From positions 1-28,976 of the IMG/VR virus record IMGVR_UViG_3300012930_000026: a DNA stretch of 28,976 nucleotides; one strand, given 5' to 3'. A program made the translations under genes and the position numbers. Of this stretch, positions 4,708-12,874 are shown one piece after another. Source of the stretch: a virus. The notes beneath the pieces were generated by a model. It saw only the letters and a program-made list of their open reading frames with translations, made no database searches and was not told the origin of the DNA. Position 1 is the stretch's first letter. Every line of letters begins with the position of its first letter.

Positions 4708-6192
4708 ATGACCGACAAATCTAAACCGATGAAGATCACCGAAGCGATGCTGATGTCGATCGCAGGTGACCTCATGCCTGAACAGCGCCGCGCGTTCCGA
4801 GTGCCGGTGTTACCGCCCGGCGTGATTCCGAAGGGCGCGAACTACGCACTCGATTCGTGTGAGCCGATCATGAATTGGCTGAACATGAATCAGGGCTTTT
4901 GTGGTCTTGGCTTTCCCGGCTACACATTTTTGGCGGAGCTTGCTCAGCGCAGCGAGTTCCGCGCCGCCACCGAAACGACTGCGAATGAGATGACGCGCGA
5001 GTGGTTGCAGTTCACCGGTTGCAAACCCGATCAGCAATACGAATTGACGGAAGCATTCACCGAATTTAATGTGCGCGGAGTCTTCCGAGACTGCGAGCGA
5101 ATGGACGGTTTCTTCGGCCGCGGCAATCTGTATATCGGCATCAAAGGACAAGAAAGCGATGGCCGGCGTATGTTGCCGCTACTCTATACTCCGGAAACGA
5201 TCAAGAAGGGATCATTGAAGATGTTGAAAGCAGTCGAACCGATCTGGACGACGCCGTACATGTACAACGCGATCGATCCGACCGCACCCGATTTTTACAA
5301 GCCGACAATGTGGTACATGCTGAGCAAGCGCGTGCATTCGTCTCGCCTACTTTCATTTATCAGCCGTCCGCTACCGGATATGCTGAAGCCGGCCTACAAC
5401 TTCAGCGGCATGTCGCTTTCCCAACTGATGGAGCCATACGTGCAACGTTGGTTGAAGACCGTCGACAGCGTGAATCGTTTAATCTCGAATTACTCGACGT
5501 CCGGTATCATGACGAATATGCAAGCGACTCTCGAAGGCGGGCAGGATGCATCGAGTCTCACGAAGCGTGCGCAGCTGTTCGCTATGCTGCGAGACAATCG
5601 CGGCTTGCTGTTACTCGACAAAGAGAGCGAGCAGTTTTTCCAGTACAACACGCCATTGAGCGCATTGCCGGATCTTCAAGCCCAAGCGCAAGAGCACATG
5701 GCTGCGCCGTCGCACATTCCCCTCGTCAAACTCACAGGCATCACGCCTGCGGGATTGAACGCATCGAGTGAAGGCGAACTCAAAGTATGGTATGACCACG
5801 TTGCGGCCGAGCAAGTCAATGAGTTCAATCCGAACATGGACATCATCCTGAAGATCATGCAGTGTCATCTGTGGGGTAAGATTGACCCGAAGATTGGATA
5901 CCAATGGATAGACCTCGACAGCCCGACCGATAAGGAACTCGCTGAGATGCGCACCGCTGACGGTAAGGCGGATGCTACGTATCTCGATAAGGGTGTCGTC
6001 GGCAAAAAAGAAGTTCGTCAGCGGCTACGCAAGTCATCCACGAGCGGGTATAGTTTCCTGGAGAGTGACGAGCCCCCAGATGATGCCGCAGAGATCGTCG
6101 ACAAAGAGGCGAAGGGCGAAGAGGGCGGAGCGTTCGGTGGCAAAGGTAAAAAGCCCGGCGACAAGTCGGGCGGTAAAGGTGAAGAGAAATGA
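4708..6192 (+). CDS. portal protein, DUF1073 family
   Basis: This 494-aa protein forms the dodecameric portal at one capsid vertex, through which TerL pumps DNA and to which the neck attaches. The N-terminal third fits the Phage_portal_3/DUF1073 pattern (NYALDSCEPIMNWLN, then GFPGYTFLAELAQRSEFR, then ETTANEMTREW). The centre contains the usual wing and stem (ERMDGFFGRGNLYIG, then LGITPAGLNASSEGELKVWYD as TPAGLNASSEGE). The C-terminus is a Gly/Lys-rich tail (GGKGKKPGDKSGGKGEEK), probably disordered. Some relatives carry a fused Acb1 anti-CBASS nuclease, but no such domain or its paired HxT motifs is visible here. A 14-bp palindrome precedes the start. Confidence 0.88.
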   Translation: MTDKSKPMKITEAMLMSIAGDLMPEQRRAFRVPVLPPGVIPKGANYALDSCEPIMNWLNMNQGFCGLGFPGYTFLAELAQRSEFRAATETTANEMTREWLQFTGCKPDQQYELTEAFTEFNVRGVFRDCERMDGFFGRGNLYIGIKGQESDGRRMLPLLYTPETIKKGSLKMLKAVEPIWTTPYMYNAIDPTAPDFYKPTMWYMLSKRVHSSRLLSFISRPLPDMLKPAYNFSGMSLSQLMEPYVQRWLKTVDSVNRLISNYSTSGIMTNMQATLEGGQDASSLTKRAQLFAMLRDNRGLLLLDKESEQFFQYNTPLSALPDLQAQAQEHMAAPSHIPLVKLTGITPAGLNASSEGELKVWYDHVAAEQVNEFNPNMDIILKIMQCHLWGKIDPKIGYQWIDLDSPTDKELAEMRTADGKADATYLDKGVVGKKEVRQRLRKSSTSGYSFLESDEPPDDAAEIVDKEAKGEEGGAFGGKGKKPGDKSGGKGEEK

Positions 6193-6500
6193 AATTCGAT
6201 ACAATGACTGCGGTATTGTGCTTACTCGGCTGGGCGCTTCATTGGCTTACAAGTTGGGGTGAAGCGTTCAAAGCGGACAAAACCACTCTGCGCGGCTACG
6301 TAGAAAAGAGTCCGCCAGCGTTCTACACTAGCGTGCTCGCCACGATCGCCGCATATCTGATCGGTCCGGACATGCTGACTATGACGGGTATCGATCTGCC
6401 GCAAACCTCAGGCGTCAAATTTCTTGGCGCATTTGCTGTCGGCTACTTTGCCGATTCGATCGTTTACAAGTTTTCGAATCTGGCGAAGAAGGTATCCTAA
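6189..6500 (+). CDS. holin-like small membrane protein
   Basis: This 103-aa protein has two to three predicted membrane helices (about 5-22, 45-63 and 78-95) and a short basic end (KFSNLAKKVS). Size, topology and position directly before a spanin pair fit a phage holin, which makes the inner-membrane hole that starts lysis. I do not recognise a named holin family, so the call rests on context. Its ATG overlaps the portal stop (ATGA), so lysis genes appear co-transcribed with the late structural genes. Confidence 0.6.
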   Translation: MKFDTMTAVLCLLGWALHWLTSWGEAFKADKTTLRGYVEKSPPAFYTSVLATIAAYLIGPDMLTMTGIDLPQTSGVKFLGAFAVGYFADSIVYKFSNLAKKVS

Positions 6501-6501
6501 C

Positions 6502-7065
6502 ATGGGTGCCGTGCTCGCTATCGGGGCGGTACTAAAACCGTTTTGGAAGTACATTGTGGGCGTCATCGTCTTGATTGCACTGATCTGGTCCATCTACAGT
6601 TGGTACGAAGGGAAACTCAACGCCGCGTATGCTCGCGGCATCGCAGTGATCGAAGCGAAGGATGCGGCGATTCTCGTCGAGCGTGAGAAACTGAACGCGC
6701 AAATTGTGAGCGACTTGAAAATTTCTGCCGCTCAGAAACAAGCTGAACTTGAAGGTAAATTACATGCGAACGAACTTATTGCTGACGATCTGCGTACTCA
6801 GTTGCGTGTTCATCGGGTGTGCAGCGATGAGAGAAGTGGCCGCGCCGTTTCCGGAGATCCCGGACCCGCCAGCAAAGTCGATGGAGCCGCCAGAGATGCC
6901 GGACCCATTGAACCAGCTCAAGAAGATTCTACTCCGACCGTCGGCGACGACCTCGTTACGATCGGCGAAGTCTGCCAATCCAATACCGACAAACTAGTCA
7001 CGCTTCAGAGTTATGTGACCGATTTGAGGAAGAAATTGAAGCTGGCCGCGAAAAAGTCGAAGTAG
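6502..7065 (+). CDS. Rz: Rz-like inner-membrane spanin (i-spanin)
   Basis: This 187-aa protein has an N-terminal signal-anchor helix (about 13-34: WKYIVGVIVLIALIWSIYSW) and then a long charged, Ala-rich periplasmic coiled coil (about 35-100). A Pro/Asp-rich middle overlaps the embedded Rz1 frame, and a second short coiled coil ends it (LVTLQSYVTDLRKKLKLAAKK). Spanins join inner and outer membranes to complete lysis of Gram-negative hosts. I chose ATG 6502, just after the preceding stop, rather than an upstream in-frame ATG that would overlap the holin-like gene. A complete Rz1-type gene lies inside it in the +1 frame. Confidence 0.85.
   Translation: MGAVLAIGAVLKPFWKYIVGVIVLIALIWSIYSWYEGKLNAAYARGIAVIEAKDAAILVEREKLNAQIVSDLKISAAQKQAELEGKLHANELIADDLRTQLRVHRVCSDERSGRAVSGDPGPASKVDGAARDAGPIEPAQEDSTPTVGDDLVTIGEVCQSNTDKLVTLQSYVTDLRKKLKLAAKKSK
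6764..6997 (+). CDS. Rz1: Rz1-like outer-membrane lipoprotein spanin, embedded in Rz
   Basis: This 77-aa protein lies wholly within the Rz gene in the +1 frame, as in lambda. It starts at ATG 6764 with GAAGG eight bases upstream. The N-terminus is a lipoprotein signal (MRTNLLLTICVLSC, then VFIGC) with possible lipidated cysteines C14 (VLSC) or C19 (FIGC). The mature part is Pro-rich (APFPEIPDPP, then EPPEMPDP), typical of o-spanins. It partners the Rz product across the periplasm. The tail LLRPSATTSLRSAKSANPIPTN (seen in part as RSAKSANPIP) is constrained by the Rz frame. Confidence 0.85.
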   Translation: MRTNLLLTICVLSCVFIGCAAMREVAAPFPEIPDPPAKSMEPPEMPDPLNQLKKILLRPSATTSLRSAKSANPIPTN

Positions 7066-7078
7066 CTGAGTCACTCAC

Positions 7079-7603
7079 GTGATAGATAAGCTGATAGAGT
7101 TTTTCCTAGAAATACTCCATCTGTTTAAGTTCTGGACCGTAATAGAACAGTATGAAGCTGCCGTCGTGCTTCGCCTCGGGACGTTTCAGCGCGAACTAAT
7201 CCCCGGCTTCCATTGGGTTATCCCTCTCGGAATTGATCGTGTGCTTCACGATAACATCGTTCCGCGCACGCATCGCCTAGAACCTCAGTCGCTCATGACC
7301 TCTGATGGAAAAGTAATCACCGTCACCGGCGTCATTACCGCGCGAATTGCTAACATCCAAAAAGCCCTCCTCGAAGTGGAAGGTGTCGATCACGCATTAG
7401 TGGATTGTTGCACGGCGGCTATCGCCGAACGAGTCACGAGTTCTACATGGGAAGAATTGACCACCGAAGGATTCCGCGAAAAACTCATGAAGGAGTGTCG
7501 CAAACAAGGATGGAAATATGGTCTAGAAATCGAGCGTGCGCAATTGGCCGATATTTGTCCGTCACGCTCGATTCGACTTCTTTCCGTCAGAATGGGGCAT
7601 TAA
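7079..7603 (+). CDS. SPFH/Band 7 (prohibitin-stomatin-like) domain protein
   Basis: This 174-aa protein starts at GTG 7079. After a short hydrophobic/amphipathic N-terminus (LIEFFLEILHLFKFW) it reads as an SPFH domain: EQYEAAVVLRLGTFQ, then PGFHWVIPLGIDRV, then the segments VPRTHRLEPQSLMTSDGK and VTGVITARI, and TTEGFREKLMKE. It is compact, stopping after the SPFH core without the long oligomerising coiled coil of cellular stomatins. SPFH proteins form membrane-associated rings and in bacteria control FtsH (HflK/C, QmcA). Its position right after the lysis cassette suggests a membrane role such as superinfection control or lysis timing, which is inference. Confidence 0.82.
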   Translation: MIDKLIEFFLEILHLFKFWTVIEQYEAAVVLRLGTFQRELIPGFHWVIPLGIDRVLHDNIVPRTHRLEPQSLMTSDGKVITVTGVITARIANIQKALLEVEGVDHALVDCCTAAIAERVTSSTWEELTTEGFREKLMKECRKQGWKYGLEIERAQLADICPSRSIRLLSVRMGH

Positions 7604-7615
7604 GTCTGGTAGAAC

Positions 7616-7644
7616 TTGACCTATACGCGCCGGTCGCGTAAAAC
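7616..7644 (+). promoter_or_regulatory. sigma70-like promoter before the 95-aa protein/phosphoesterase pair
   Basis: TTGACC (7616-7621, five of six to the -35 consensus), a 17-base spacer, and TAAAAC (7639-7644, four of six to the -10). Predicted start is near 7651, leaving a leader of about 22 bases with GGAG before ATG 7673. It sits in one of the few real gaps of the gene array and would let the following block be expressed by host polymerase, separately from late genes. Confidence 0.45.
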
Positions 7645-7672
7645 GTGCTCTACACAACGTGGAGTCTCAAGA

Positions 7673-7960
7673 ATGCCTAAAACATCTCGTGATCTAATAT
7701 CCTTCCGCAATGAGTTCGATAAGAAAATTCAGATCCGAAAGCGTCTGAAGGAAGCACTCGCCGCACTACGTAAGCTGGGTCGTGAGGAGTGGAGAAGCGA
7801 GCGGGAATTGATCGACACGGCGCACGTTAGCTGCAAAGATATAGGGGAGTTCCGTCAAGAATTCGCGGCCCACATCGTCACCGTTCCGAGCATGCAGCGG
7901 GGGAAGGACAAAACGATTTGGTTCGCCGATCCGAAAGTTGCCGCTAAGGTCCGCCAATGA
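7673..7960 (+). CDS. 95-aa basic protein, possible winged-helix type
   Basis: I do not recognise a family. The 95-aa product is basic and largely helical (RNEFDKKIQIRKRLKEALA), then has a segment like a small winged helix (EWRSERELIDTAHVSCKDIGEFR) and a beta-like end (KDKTIWFADPKVAAKVRQ). That layout hints at DNA binding. ATG 7673 with GGAG eight bases upstream is preferred to the in-frame TTG at 7616. It overlaps the phosphoesterase gene by ATGA, so the two probably work together. Confidence 0.7.
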   Translation: MPKTSRDLISFRNEFDKKIQIRKRLKEALAALRKLGREEWRSERELIDTAHVSCKDIGEFRQEFAAHIVTVPSMQRGKDKTIWFADPKVAAKVRQ

Positions 7961-9426
7961 ACACGCGTACGATTGATGATTTTCGCAAAGAGCACGATCC
8001 GGCTTATCGGTTCGAAAGCCCAAATATTGTTTATTCTCGTGATCTCGATAAGAAGTGTAAAAACTTCATCGTGGTCGCGGCTCAGAACGCTACGCCGGTC
8101 GAGCCGACGTGGTGGGCGGTCCTCCAGCAAATCGCAAAACACCGCAAGGCGGAAATTCTCGTCATCCCGATTCGGTACAAGAATCCGACTTCGCATTGGA
8201 GCGGTTCACAGAATAACGCCGAGTATTGGGATCCGCTAGTGCGTGATCTCTTGTGGAATGTTCGGCATTCGCTGAATAAAAACCTCACGGTTCTTGCGGA
8301 TATGAAAGCCCAGCCGACCGCATCATCGCCGGTGACCGGATCAGACGCGTTGACCGCGGATCAGTCCTCCATTATCGGACACACCAAGATTCAATTGCGG
8401 TCCGTGCCGGTGCCAAGTAGTCTCATGGCGAAACTGGTCACGACGACTGGAGCCTGCACAGTACCGAACTTTACGGATAGCCGCGCGGGCAAGCTCGGTG
8501 AGTTCCACCATTCATACTCTGCGGTGCTCGCCGAACTCGATGGCGGGCGTTTCAATATGCGCCATCTTCATTACAGCGAATCGAAAAAGCGCTGTATCGA
8601 TCTTAACGTGATGTATGACTCGCGCGGATTTTCGAAAGCGCCCCCAGCCGAAGCGCTCATTATGGGTGACACGCATGTTCGTTTCATCGATCCGCTCGTT
8701 GAGCGAGCGACATTCGGTAAGAAAGGCATCATCAACCAATGCGATCCGAAACATCTCATCTGGCATGACCTCTTGGATTCGTACAGCATCAGTCACCACC
8801 ACAAGAAGAAACCCTTCACGCGACTCTCGAAGTTGCTGTCCGGTCGCGACGACGTAATGGGAGAAATTGACGAGGCGGTTCGATTCGTAATGGATCGAGG
8901 TCGCGGGCGGCATAACGTGATCGTTCCGAGCAATCACATCGACCATTTGACTCGGTGGATCGAAGAGACCGATTGGAAGGAAGATTTGCGGAATGCAAAA
9001 ACGTATCTAAATACGGCGCTTCAAATGGTTAAAGGGCTGGAGACCACTCCGAGCGGAGCGAAATTCCCTGATCCGTTCGGCCTATGGTTCCGCAAGATTG
9101 CCGCCAATAGTTTTCGGGAATTCCGACTACTGAGCCGCGACGAGTCATTCAAGCTGGCCGGGGTAGAACTCGGTTTGCACGGTGATAAAGGGCCGAACGG
9201 CGCGCGTGGGAGCGTGATGAATCACCGACGGCTCGGCGTGAAAACGGTCATAGGCCATAGCCACGTGCCTGCCATCGACGAGGGAAGCTATCAGGTAGGC
9301 ACATCTACGTTGCTCAACCTCGAGTATGTCAGCGGCCCTAGTTCTTGGTTGAATTGCCACTGCCTGTTAAATGCTGACGGAAAACGACAACTTATTTTCA
9401 TCATCAAAGGTAACTGGCGCGCATGA
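7957..9426 (+). CDS. metallophosphoesterase, phage T5 A1-like
   Basis: This 489-aa protein has the full calcineurin-like metallophosphoesterase motif series in its C-terminal half: GDTH (D238, H240), HD at 270-271, SNH (N326, H327), HGD (408-410) and GHSH (H434, H436). All metal ligands appear present, so it should be an active phosphatase or nuclease. The N-terminal half has a conserved-looking stretch (FIVVAAQNATPV, then ILVIPIRYKNPTS) that resembles, from memory, T5 A1. A1 is the pre-early protein needed for host DNA degradation and second-step DNA transfer. Phosphoesterase is sure; the A1 link is moderate. It follows a probable host-type promoter, as expected for an early gene, but sits inside a late structural region. 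Confidence 0.8.
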   Translation: MNTRTIDDFRKEHDPAYRFESPNIVYSRDLDKKCKNFIVVAAQNATPVEPTWWAVLQQIAKHRKAEILVIPIRYKNPTSHWSGSQNNAEYWDPLVRDLLWNVRHSLNKNLTVLADMKAQPTASSPVTGSDALTADQSSIIGHTKIQLRSVPVPSSLMAKLVTTTGACTVPNFTDSRAGKLGEFHHSYSAVLAELDGGRFNMRHLHYSESKKRCIDLNVMYDSRGFSKAPPAEALIMGDTHVRFIDPLVERATFGKKGIINQCDPKHLIWHDLLDSYSISHHHKKKPFTRLSKLLSGRDDVMGEIDEAVRFVMDRGRGRHNVIVPSNHIDHLTRWIEETDWKEDLRNAKTYLNTALQMVKGLETTPSGAKFPDPFGLWFRKIAANSFREFRLLSRDESFKLAGVELGLHGDKGPNGARGSVMNHRRLGVKTVIGHSHVPAIDEGSYQVGTSTLLNLEYVSGPSSWLNCHCLLNADGKRQLIFIIKGNWRA

Positions 9427-9761
9427 ACTTACTCTCTCCCTCGACTTTTTGGTCTCTCAGTGCCGCGCTAGTAGCGGTTGCACTGGAGTATTGCTACCGC
9501 ATGTTCCCGGCCCCTTGGACCAATGCAGGATACATGACCTTGTTCATCGTAGCGCAATGCGTTATAGGGCTGGCGATCTACAAAATTGTCAACACCCCAG
9601 GCGTACCGCTCGTGGGCGCGCTCATCGTGTGGAGCTTCGCAACCATCTTCATGCGGGTCCTTGTTTCATACGTGTTTCTTCACGATAAAATATCGCCGGG
9701 GACCTGGTGCGCTGTTGGGCTCTTAGTCGTCGCGCGCTTCGCTCAAACCTTTTGGAAGTAG
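9423..9761 (+). CDS. four-helix small membrane protein
   Basis: This 112-aa protein has four predicted membrane helices (about 7-25, 37-54, 62-84 and 90-108), short loops, and a C-terminus (GTWCAVGLLVVARFAQTFWK) that vaguely resembles small multidrug resistance-type proteins. It could be a second holin, an antiholin or a superinfection-exclusion protein. It overlaps the phosphoesterase stop (ATGA), which suggests it belongs to the early/accessory block rather than the lysis cassette 2.4 kb upstream. Confidence 0.65.
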   Translation: MNLLSPSTFWSLSAALVAVALEYCYRMFPAPWTNAGYMTLFIVAQCVIGLAIYKIVNTPGVPLVGALIVWSFATIFMRVLVSYVFLHDKISPGTWCAVGLLVVARFAQTFWK

Positions 9762-9770
9762 GAGAATCAA

Positions 9771-10208
9771 ATGAAAACTTCTCTACCGCTCGATTCTGAG
9801 GCGCGCAAGACGTATCCTTTGTTCTCCGGCTGCAAAGCGTATTTCCCCGCCGCGCTCGCGGGCGTGGCGCATCACTCGTTCATTAGCAACGAGAAGCACA
9901 ACAAAGGACAGCCATTGCATCATTCGCGCGGCAAGTCGAACGATCATCAAGATTGTATAGAACGCCACAATTCCGACCTCGGCGATCTGCTGGCGGCTCT
10001 GAAGCGCGGGGAACCAGTGAATATCGGAGATATCCTGTACGAAGCTAATGCGATGGCGTGGCGTGCATTGGCGCTGTCCCAAGAGCTTCATGAAGAGCAC
10101 GCTGGCTGTCCGCTTGCACCCGCTGCCCGTTTACCGTTGGCTCCTCCGCCCCCGCCGGTCGAAGCATTCGGCGTTCCGGAATTCCTTCGTCCGAAGAAAC
10201 AAGTATGA
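9771..10208 (+). CDS. dATP/dGTP diphosphohydrolase-like protein (DUF5664 type)
   Basis: This 145-aa protein fits the dATP/dGTP diphosphohydrolase N-terminal family: ARKTYPLFSGCKAYFPAALA, then VAHHSF..NEKHNKGQPLHH, then RGKSNDHQDCIERH, then AMAWRALALSQELHEEH. The His/Asp/Glu-rich helices would bind metal and cleave purine dNTPs to dNMP plus pyrophosphate. A Pro-rich tail (LAPPPPPVEAF) follows. GGAG lies just upstream of ATG 9771. Relatives occur in phages that replace adenine with 2-aminoadenine (MazZ-type function) but also in many phages with normal DNA. No PurZ gene is in this window. Nucleotide-pool control is the safe inference. Confidence 0.75.
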   Translation: MKTSLPLDSEARKTYPLFSGCKAYFPAALAGVAHHSFISNEKHNKGQPLHHSRGKSNDHQDCIERHNSDLGDLLAALKRGEPVNIGDILYEANAMAWRALALSQELHEEHAGCPLAPAARLPLAPPPPPVEAFGVPEFLRPKKQV

Positions 10209-10444
10209 CGGCGCAGTTGCTGAAACTCTGGCGCTGTTGGATCTCGGATCGCACGCACCGTAAGCCGTTATGGAAGACTTGGATACGGCTCTTGGCCGGC
10301 ATGCCGAAGATCGCCGATCAAGCAGAGGATGACGCGTACTACCGAATTTATAAAGAGAGAATCGATAACGGGCAGTACAAGTCGGAATCGGTGGCGCGGG
10401 GTAAATGGGTTCGAGGGCAGTGGCTAATGCGGAGCACGTCATGA
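10205..10444 (+). CDS. small hypothetical protein
   Basis: This 79-aa basic, Trp-rich protein (KLWRCWISD, then KPLWKTWIRLLAG, then RGKWVRGQWLM) has no recognised family and no membrane segment or metal site. It overlaps both neighbours by ATGA (10205-10208 and 10441-10444), which supports it as a real translated gene of the accessory block. Confidence 0.65.
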   Translation: MTAQLLKLWRCWISDRTHRKPLWKTWIRLLAGMPKIADQAEDDAYYRIYKERIDNGQYKSESVARGKWVRGQWLMRSTS

Positions 10445-10929
10445 AAGTTTTCATTGGGATCAACGCCGGCAGTTGGAAGATCGGATTAGAGTACGCCCCC
10501 ATCAGTCATGAGGATGGCGGGCAGTATATGACCAGATGGATCGTATACCTCCTATGGTTCAACTTGCGCTTACACCACTTTTTCCGCGGCGATTACGATC
10601 GAGCGTCCCACACCCACCCGTGGTGGTTCATCACGTTTCCTTTTACGGCGTATTGGGAACAGGTATATGAAAAGGGAGTTTTCGTTTCGAATAGGCTAGT
10701 TCGCCGACTTAGATTTCATTGGAGGTCGTCGAATTTCGAACATATAGTTTTGTATCCGGTCACGGTGGGGTTCGACCCGGCGTACCCCCAGTACAAAGAA
10801 GTCGCCGCTTGCCACAGAATGAAACCGTTCTGGACTTTTGTGATCGCTGGCCGGCCCTGTAATGTATGGGGCTTTTATGGGACTTCTGGACTTCCGATGG
10901 CAAGTTCCATCCAATACGGTGACGAATGA
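10441..10929 (+). CDS. cupin-like fold protein
   Basis: This 162-aa protein matches a small phage/bacterial cupin-like pattern: RASHTHPWWF (H57, H59), then FPFTAYWEQVYEKG, then RRLRFHWRSSNFEHIV, and near the end PFWTFVIAGRPCNVWGFY. The HxH and the later His residues could bind a metal, as in cupin dioxygenases and sugar epimerases, but the reaction is unknown. I chose ATG 10441, which overlaps the previous stop, over the upstream ATG 10405. It is followed by a glycosyltransferase with ATGA overlap, so a sugar-related role is possible. Confidence 0.7.
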   Translation: MKVFIGINAGSWKIGLEYAPISHEDGGQYMTRWIVYLLWFNLRLHHFFRGDYDRASHTHPWWFITFPFTAYWEQVYEKGVFVSNRLVRRLRFHWRSSNFEHIVLYPVTVGFDPAYPQYKEVAACHRMKPFWTFVIAGRPCNVWGFYGTSGLPMASSIQYGDE

Positions 10930-11729
10930 GGGATATAGCAGTTGTCGTCTTCGCATGGGGCGGCTCTCGTCCGATTTATTCCGCATGGCACGCGGAGAAT
11001 ATGCGGAGAATGGTTGCCAAGCATCTGACTCTTCCGCATCGCTTCGTTGTTGTCACCGATAACATAGATGTTCACAAAGACGCTGGTTTGCAAACATATC
11101 CTTTATGGGCATGCCCGAAGCATGATGAGCTTCGAACCAATTGGATCAATTGCTATGTTCGCCTGGGGTTGTTCGAAAAGTATATTGGTGGCGCCATCGC
11201 TTCACGCATTCTCGCTCTCGATCTCGACGCGGTGATTCGCGCGCCAATCGACGATCTCTTTGACGGTGACGAGCCGTTCAAGGTGTTGGCGATGAACGAC
11301 CGAGATCATCTGCAAGGCGCGCTATTCCGCGTAGACCCCGGTCTCGTTTCTCCTTGTCCGTGGGACCACTATATGCGGAACGATGAGACACAAGTATTCG
11401 AGCGCAGTGCGAAATGGATCGGCAGCGATCAGGCGATTCTGTCGGAGATGTTCTACGACGACGTGCGCTCCGGAAAAATTCCTAACTGGTCGCAAGACGA
11501 TGGCATCTCAATCAATGAGTTCGAAGCGCCATGGCGCATATTCTTCCGCACCAGCAACCGCAAATGCTGGTTCCCCGACATGCCTGAGCAAGCGGAGTAT
11601 CTCGCGCAGTCGGACCGAGAGAGCGTGCCGGAAGCGCTACTGCCCCGGATTATGACCCCGCCTCCGGTCGTACCGGGGAGAATGACGATTCAGCGCCAGC
11701 GCCGACGCGGTGGCGGGAGAGGCTGGTAG
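10926..11729 (+). CDS. GT-A fold glycosyltransferase (GT8-like)
   Basis: This 267-aa protein starts with a beta-strand typical of nucleotide-sugar binding (IAVVVFAWGG) and has the metal/UDP-sugar DxD motif at D99-D101 (ILALDLDAVI). A later acidic motif is GSDQAIL (D168), then W/F-rich acceptor-side segments and a basic Gly/Arg tail (RQRRRGGGRGW). It likely transfers a sugar to a virion protein, host surface sugar or modified base; the acceptor is not readable. It is the last gene before the head module and is tightly linked to the cupin-like gene. Confidence 0.82.
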   Translation: MRDIAVVVFAWGGSRPIYSAWHAENMRRMVAKHLTLPHRFVVVTDNIDVHKDAGLQTYPLWACPKHDELRTNWINCYVRLGLFEKYIGGAIASRILALDLDAVIRAPIDDLFDGDEPFKVLAMNDRDHLQGALFRVDPGLVSPCPWDHYMRNDETQVFERSAKWIGSDQAILSEMFYDDVRSGKIPNWSQDDGISINEFEAPWRIFFRTSNRKCWFPDMPEQAEYLAQSDRESVPEALLPRIMTPPPVVPGRMTIQRQRRRGGGRGW

Positions 11730-11761
11730 ATTCTGTCAAATAGCTGGTGTATTCTAAACGC

Positions 11762-12874
11762 ATGGAGTACACCTTCGACAAACGCACTATCGACAACAAC
11801 GGCCATTTGCACGTCCCGAATTGCCGTGTAACTAAGGCTTCTGTCGACAAATATCTCGGCGCGGAGACGCGCGGCTCATCTGTGCGCGGCTTTGCCGCGA
11901 TGGATGTGATCTCGATCTATCGCGACGAACAAGAACTCATCAAGTCGCTCTCATCGTTCGACACTGTTCCATTGATGGTCGAGCACGTCATCACGACGGC
12001 CGATGACCCGAAAAAAGATCTACTTGTCGGCGCTGCGACGAACCCGCGCTGGGAAGCACCCTATATAATCATGGACTTGACCATTTGGGATCAAGCCGGG
12101 ATCGATCTAATCGAATCGAAAGAACAGGCGGAACTAAGCGCCGGTTACTCTCGTGATCTCGATTGGACTGCGGGAAAATCTCCGAGCGGCTTGCAATTCG
12201 ATGCGCGCATGTTTAACATAAAGTGCAATCACGTTGCGCTAGTTCGAAAGGGTCGCGTCGATGGCGCGCTCGTAGCGGATAAGGCCCCAGAGGTTTCCAT
12301 GTTCGACAAGTTAAAGTTTCCGAAGATCGTCGCCGCGCTGTTTAGCGCGCTGAACATCACGCCGAAAGCGGAAAGTGCTTTGGCGCTCGATGCCGCGCTC
12401 GAATCGGAAATCGTTGTCGACGCCGCGAAAAAGGAACCAGTTGTCGAGGCCGTTAAGGAACTGACCGAAGACGAAAAGGTCGCTAAGGCGAAAAAGGATA
12501 AGGAAGATTCCGAAGCGGCTGCGAAAGTCGCCAAGGAAAAAGAAGACGCGGCATCATGCGCAATGGATGCGAAGATCAATGAGGCTGTGGCGGCCGCTGT
12601 CACTGCGGCGGAATCTCGGGTTTACGCCCTATGTGCCGCAAAGTCGGACGTTGAAGAAGTTGTCGGCGATGTGTCGCTCGACAGCGTCGAAAAAGTTTAT
12701 CGTTTCGCGTTGACCAAGGTCGGCGTGGAACACGAAGCGGTTGCTGCCGACGCACTACCGGCTTTGTGGGGATCAAGTCAAAAGCCGTCGGGCGTTTCGT
12801 TGGACTCCGCGCGTCACGAACCGTTCGATATCACCGCTCTCTTTCCTGGCATCGGTCTCATTCGCAAGGGTTAA
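11762..12874 (+). CDS. prohead protease with scaffold-like tail, DUF2213 family
   Basis: This 370-aa protein starts at ATG 11762; an in-frame GTG 11747 is less likely. The N-terminal 180 residues fit DUF2213 (GHLHVPNCRVTKASVDKYLG, then VPLMVEHVITT, then ELSAGYSRDL, then DARMFNIKCNHVALVRKGRV), believed to be the capsid maturation protease. His and Ser in these blocks are candidate catalytic residues. The next part is a Lys/Glu/Ala-rich coiled coil (EDEKVAKAKKDKEDSEAAAK) typical of a scaffold, ending in a structured tail. Protease and scaffold therefore appear fused. GTCAAATAG at 11735-11743 repeats a word found in the leader at 610. Confidence 0.82.
   Translation: MEYTFDKRTIDNNGHLHVPNCRVTKASVDKYLGAETRGSSVRGFAAMDVISIYRDEQELIKSLSSFDTVPLMVEHVITTADDPKKDLLVGAATNPRWEAPYIIMDLTIWDQAGIDLIESKEQAELSAGYSRDLDWTAGKSPSGLQFDARMFNIKCNHVALVRKGRVDGALVADKAPEVSMFDKLKFPKIVAALFSALNITPKAESALALDAALESEIVVDAAKKEPVVEAVKELTEDEKVAKAKKDKEDSEAAAKVAKEKEDAASCAMDAKINEAVAAAVTAAESRVYALCAAKSDVEEVVGDVSLDSVEKVYRFALTKVGVEHEAVAADALPALWGSSQKPSGVSLDSARHEPFDITALFPGIGLIRKG

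Follow-up and report, generated by a model that had tools for sequence, protein, structure and literature searches.

A candidate DNA-degrading pair of a winged-helix protein and a T5 A1-type phosphoesterase in an uncultured tailed phage

The A1 protein of bacteriophage T5 acts at the start of infection (PMC3556154). Host DNA degradation depends on it (PMC8541194, PMC13250531), and it is highly toxic in Escherichia coli (PMC7472727). In its homologue from Caulobacter phage phiCbK, a helix-turn-helix (HTH) at the N-terminus was noted earlier (PMC3556154). Here we describe an A1-type gene in the IMG/VR record IMGVR_UViG_3300012930_000026 (28,976 nucleotides, positions 1 to 28,976, one strand read 5' to 3'; this whole stretch is called the window below), whose source is an uncultured tailed virus of bacteria, a contractile-tailed phage. 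The gene directly follows one encoding a winged-helix protein of 95 amino acids (aa). The locus is a new arrangement around a known protein family, and its action is most probably adaptor-directed DNA hydrolysis.

The winged-helix protein and its A1-type partner

A first-pass annotation had suggested that three overlapping genes behind a good sigma70 promoter form a portable takeover or anti-host module. The three open reading frames (ORFs) are real, with an ATGA overlap at both junctions, and the locus is laid out as follows.

7616-7644, + strand: promoter-like element TTGACC-17-TAAAAC, kept in two relatives
7673-7960, + strand: 95-aa basic winged-helix protein, proposed DNA-binding adaptor (AlphaFold2 model, fold matches, pairing, isoelectric point)
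7694-7723, + strand: N-terminal tag LISFRNEFDK of the 95-aa protein (motif count among relatives)
7957-9426, + strand: T5 A1-type calcineurin-like metallophosphoesterase, 489 aa (phrog_1745, metal ligands, model)
7972-8001, + strand: N-terminal tag IDDFRKEHDP of the A1 protein (motif counts, co-variation with the partner tag)
8641-9423, + strand: catalytic domain of the A1 protein, residues 229-489 (structural matches)
9423-9761, + strand: 112-aa small membrane protein (hydrophobic segments, single relative)

The similarity of the 489-aa protein to T5 A1 was far beyond chance. It matched phrog_1745, annotated as 'DNA transfer protein', from residues 28-488 to profile positions 80-541 of 542 (E 3.6e-130), tblastn to T5-type A1 gave ~30% identity with 94% of the query covered (E ~1e-49), and 1123 phage records hold relatives. 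All of the metal motifs named earlier (GDTH, HD, NH, HGD and GHSH) were present, and the eight metal ligands (D238, H240, D271, N326, H327, H408, H434 and H436) were invariant in 71 homologues. The AlphaFold2 model had a mean predicted local distance difference test (pLDDT) score of 90.9, and the best fold matches of residues 229-489 were the PolD DP1 proofreading exonuclease (Z 12.9), SbcD (11.6), LpxH (11.4) and Mre11 (11.3); the fold search reached little of the N-terminal half (1-228). No sequence-level match was found in the PDB. The predicted fold favours DNA chemistry without proving it.

The 95-aa protein was modelled (pLDDT 87.6) with a helix-strand-helix-helix-two-strand wing topology, and its PDB matches were mostly winged-helix chains, at low Z scores (up to 7). 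Its isoelectric point (pI) is 10.1, and all 35 family members are basic (pI 8.9-10.3). An extra HTH, read from sequence, stands ahead of the winged helix in loci L010 and L011, both A1-linked, and in L140. The modelled fold, the basic pI and the fused HTH suggest that the protein binds DNA, which supports the small DNA-binding protein suspected earlier. The family was assembled here from viral contigs. It showed no convincing fit to any Pfam or PHROG family, its profile gave only chance-level matches among PDB sequences, and three different members used as queries found no convincing match in 50,697 records of isolated phages. Among bacterial genome contigs, the matches were to contigs of metagenome-assembled genomes only and pointed to no clear host.

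About 80 related viruses formed the comparison set, with 74 unique A1 loci, 71 of them five-prime-complete. A winged-helix gene lay directly upstream of A1 on the same strand in 34 of these 71. Among the other 37, an N-terminal Cys cluster was fused to A1 in 32, matching Pfam zinc ribbons of the InsA type (to E 3.3e-10) or the recombinase type (to 4.5e-5), and the remaining five had a second Cys/His cluster (one), an HTH by eye (three) or neither (one). HTH-bearing A1 proteins were also found in the isolated phages R5C, phiCbK, Vibrio 249E41-1 and Panino, and an AT-hook-like A1 in a Rhizobium phage. The separate winged helix and A1 remained paired across widely diverged proteins and across many phages, in line with the portability proposed at first. 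These patterns suggest that the A1 core is nearly always accompanied by a DNA-binding module, either fused or as a separate matching protein. Judged by gene order, the conserved unit is the winged helix plus the phosphoesterase, not three genes.

The 112-aa protein probably lies outside this unit and is lineage-specific. Three hydrophobic segments were found by the Kyte-Doolittle method at a standard cut-off, where the first-pass annotation had named four membrane helices; a fourth is plausible. The only relative found is in L007 (80% identity), a separate scan for relatives found none, and membrane genes were not enriched beside A1 (3/67 loci vs 18/642 ORFs), which rules the membrane protein out as a general part of the module. 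Because T5-type phages have a small membrane protein beside A1, the protein may be linked to A1 in this lineage only.

Two further kinds of ORF were seen upstream of the pair or of A1. In L051, L053, L057, L069, L075 and L079, an open frame of ~1800-2600 aa stands directly before the zinc-ribbon A1, most of these frames being cut by the locus edge. A protein starting MTTIAYRDGVIAADS recurs immediately before either the 95-aa gene or A1 (L027, L032, L035, L037, L040, L119, L120 and L137); by eye it resembles an HslV-like Ntn hydrolase, and one of these proteins had no Pfam match.

A shared tag and a second partner enzyme

A search starting from the winged helix identified eight further loci beyond the intact A1 pairs. 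Two of them hold an A1 cut by the contig end (L138, and L132, which is the other end of the L008 contig). The other six are without A1, and the winged helix is immediately followed by a phrog_284 exonuclease, a different calcineurin-like enzyme; a strictly A1-specific 95-aa family is thus ruled out.

Three kinds of protein, namely winged helices, partnered A1 proteins and the phrog_284 partners, share an N-terminal LxxFRxxHD(P)-type motif. The strict pattern occurred in 25 of 36 winged helices and 22 of 36 partnered A1 proteins, and in none of 35 unpartnered A1 proteins or 1281 other ORFs of the same loci. Where the tag diverges, the two partners still resemble each other; in L080, for instance, LEDLDKQYNP is paired with LDDVDQQFNP. 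When the tags were defined by alignment columns alone, the tag distances of one partner correlated with those of the other after core divergence was accounted for (partial r 0.48, p 0.0003), also after removal of the most divergent group (partial r 0.34, p 0.007), under a permutation test that removes phylogenetic dependence in part; hand-picked tags showed the same co-variation. The shared, co-varying tag is the best evidence for a physical or functional coupling of winged helix and A1. Its simplest reading is docking between the partners, although it may instead reflect a common third partner or a role in head targeting. The A1 family itself is already known, whereas the adaptor, the tag and the exchange rule appear to be new.

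We therefore propose, with confidence evenly divided for and against, a two-component DNA-degrading system that consists of a DNA-binding adaptor and an A1-type metal nuclease, with host DNA as the most likely target. The winged helix would bind DNA and deliver or dock onto the metallophosphoesterase, the matched tags (LxxFRxxHD) would mark the two as partners, and A1 would hydrolyse DNA by a two-metal centre of the PolD-DP1/Mre11 kind. A dATP/dGTP-diphosphohydrolase-like protein encoded at 9771-10208 would probably act on the nucleotides. The target would most likely be bacterial host DNA by analogy with T5 A1 genetics, from which the takeover or anti-host role is also carried over. DNA binding, protein contact, nuclease activity, host target and timing are what we infer from these comparisons.

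Several observations weigh against this proposal. The calcineurin-like fold is also found in non-nucleases such as LpxH and Vps29. On the A1 tree, as few as two events can account for the exchange of a fused module and a separate winged helix, which leaves the exclusivity of the two arrangements with a small number of events behind it. The pair sits among head genes, a setting that does not lead one to expect early expression, and this neighbourhood of head genes and nucleotide-degrading enzymes also allows late DNA processing. Finally, T5 A1 binds host RNA polymerase, with which it co-purifies (PMC7472727, PMC3556154). This last point and the HTH domains on A1 relatives would suit a transcription switch, in which host RNA polymerase is the main route of A1 action, with the winged helix as its promoter-specificity partner and DNA degradation as an indirect effect. 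We consider such a switch improbable, since the metal site is fully conserved in 71 proteins and the same winged helix also pairs with another phosphoesterase. Because one winged helix partners two phosphoesterase families, what they have in common seems to be the enzyme activity.

Genomic setting and the question of timing

The gene order in the window is HNH genes, terminase, portal, Rz-like spanin, SPFH, the genes studied here, phrog_27780, cysteine-dioxygenase-like, glycosyltransferase-like, head maturation protease, capsid, sheath and baseplate. The late-region setting recognised in the first-pass annotation is thus borne out, with the following neighbours.

4708-6192: portal
6496-7065: Rz-like spanin
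7079-7603, + strand: SPFH/Band 7 protein, prohibitin-like (PF01145, E 2.5e-19)
9771-10208, + strand: 145-aa dATP/dGTP-diphosphohydrolase-like protein, phrog_27780 (profile matches via relatives)
10405-11729: cysteine-dioxygenase-like (phrog_4786) and glycosyltransferase-like (phrog_1962, weak) genes
11747-12874: head maturation protease

The gene run extends past 9761, as the gene at 9771-10208 starts within 10 bases and has its own AGGAG. The window protein itself scored E 0.31 against PF18909, which falls short of the cut-off, and is tied to this family through its phrog_27780 relatives, 15 of 17 of which matched it (E up to 1, best 1e-11). Across 66 loci, 35, window included, had one of three kinds of gene in the 2.5 kb that follow A1, namely a PF18909 dATP/dGTP diphosphohydrolase, a YfbR-like HD 5'-deoxynucleotidase or phrog_27780. 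This count is favoured by profiles built from A1 neighbours; almost nothing was found beyond 4 kb. One locus (L083) has a deoxynucleoside monophosphate kinase. Head genes were found near 16/36 winged-helix loci vs 0/36 others, a contrast that may be inflated because the head profiles came from winged-helix loci. Replication genes showed the opposite distribution (20/36 fused-type vs 8/36 winged-helix loci).

This setting bears on a reading in which the winged helix steers the nuclease, ahead of packaging, to phage DNA that is replicating or concatemeric or to leftover host DNA. The pair would then serve morphogenesis or recombination and be produced together with the head proteins, and would not be a takeover system. 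The location between portal and head protease, the association with head genes and the nearest folds, which are proofreading and repair nucleases, agree with such a late role. Nevertheless, we regard it as rather unlikely, since the adjoining nucleotide hydrolases suit destruction rather than processing, T5 A1 works at the start of infection, and the pair has a conserved promoter-like element of its own.

Both boxes and the 17-bp spacing of this element are identical in L007 and L003/L017, and the spacer has diverged, with 5 of 17 bases invariant across the window and these relatives. It is the sole exact copy in the window. The promoter previously called good is therefore conserved and plausible but weak by consensus: a generic sigma70 scan of the window did not list it, because its -10 box is TAAAAC, and it was absent from the other winged-helix loci examined. 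An imperfect palindrome (AAGT-N8-ACTT, 7602-7620) that overlies the -35 box is shared by the window and L007 and, in part, by L017; that it might be an operator is pure speculation.

A late region could also be reconciled with a takeover enzyme if both proteins were made with the head and injected into the next host. The internal proteins of phage T4 are directed into the head by a capsid-targeting sequence. By the same principle, the LxxFRxxHD tag would send both proteins into the head, and they would enter with the DNA and act at once in the next host. The tag is common to non-homologous proteins and absent elsewhere, and both the portal-to-head-protease position and the association with head clusters are consistent with this view. 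We nonetheless give it little credence: the HTH of L010, L011 and L140 stands ahead of the tag and makes it internal, which is ill-suited to a cleaved N-terminal signal, and the co-variation of tags within pairs fits docking better. A broader form, to which we assign only a slim chance, is that LxxFRxxHD is a general coupling or capsid-loading code, by which a tagged adaptor and interchangeable nucleases are loaded during head assembly and then injected. If the capsid-loading code were true, host DNA would be attacked before any phage gene expression.

The region from 6189 to 11729 looks like an inserted cargo stretch. Aeromonas phage 2_D05 has a short DNA match to the window in the portal gene, and its portal is separated from the next forward gene by a gene for a head protein and two small ones on the opposite strand, a gene content from which the cargo view is drawn. 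A PADLOC search gave no match to anti-phage defence families. SPFH homologues lie upstream in five clustered loci (L017, L030, L036, L065 and L121), which represent few relatives only. At the other end of the window, two consecutive HNH endonuclease genes of the same family were found (845-1423 and 1515-1712), the second one short.

Comparison with known systems

Without A1, T5 can neither destroy host DNA nor carry out second-step DNA transfer, yet the protein is without an assigned nuclease activity and was too toxic to express. The present loci offer a concrete rule, namely that the phosphoesterase core travels with a DNA-binding module, fused or separate. They also provide a matched-tag adaptor family and systems small enough for mutants of the active site, the adaptor and the tag to be assayed one by one.

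Homology of the window enzyme to T5 A1 extends over ~94% of its length, and the metal site is the same in both. In T5, too, A1 has genes nearby for a small DNA-related protein, for a membrane protein and for a nucleotide-hydrolysing enzyme. However, T5-type A1 carries its own N-terminal extension of ~70-90 residues, whereas the window match begins at profile position 80; judged from this alignment, the missing extension lowers the case for the same architecture, not for core family membership. The T5 gene is in the terminal repeat, and A1, A2, the small membrane protein and Dmp are all encoded in the first-step-transfer DNA, whereas the window gene lies in a head-gene region. Given this position among head genes, it is unlikely that the window gene belongs to terminally repeated, first-injected DNA; the record is a fragment without mapped ends. 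The 95-aa protein was ruled out as an A2 homologue, as its family profile had no match even at E 10 to A2 of two T5-type phages and of IW18. The 5'-deoxynucleotidase encoded near A1 in T5-type phages (dmp) is HAD-like and of another family than the window nucleotide enzyme, and T5 Dmp, which showed no similarity to the neighbouring HD nucleotidases, was ruled out as their relative.

Like the window, phiCbK combines an A1 core with a DNA-binding module of the same kind, but there the HTH is fused to A1 at a replication-module position, whereas the window has a separate winged-helix protein. PolD DP1, SbcD and Mre11 share the fold and the metal-ligand order of the catalytic domain (Z ~10-13), but the window A1 is without a sequence-level match to them or to any other PDB entry. 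The phage exonuclease phrog_284 is likewise calcineurin-like. In six loci it bears the LxxFRxxHD-type tag and comes right after a member of the 95-aa winged-helix family, but it forms a separate family of ~350-365 aa that stands in place of A1 in those loci.
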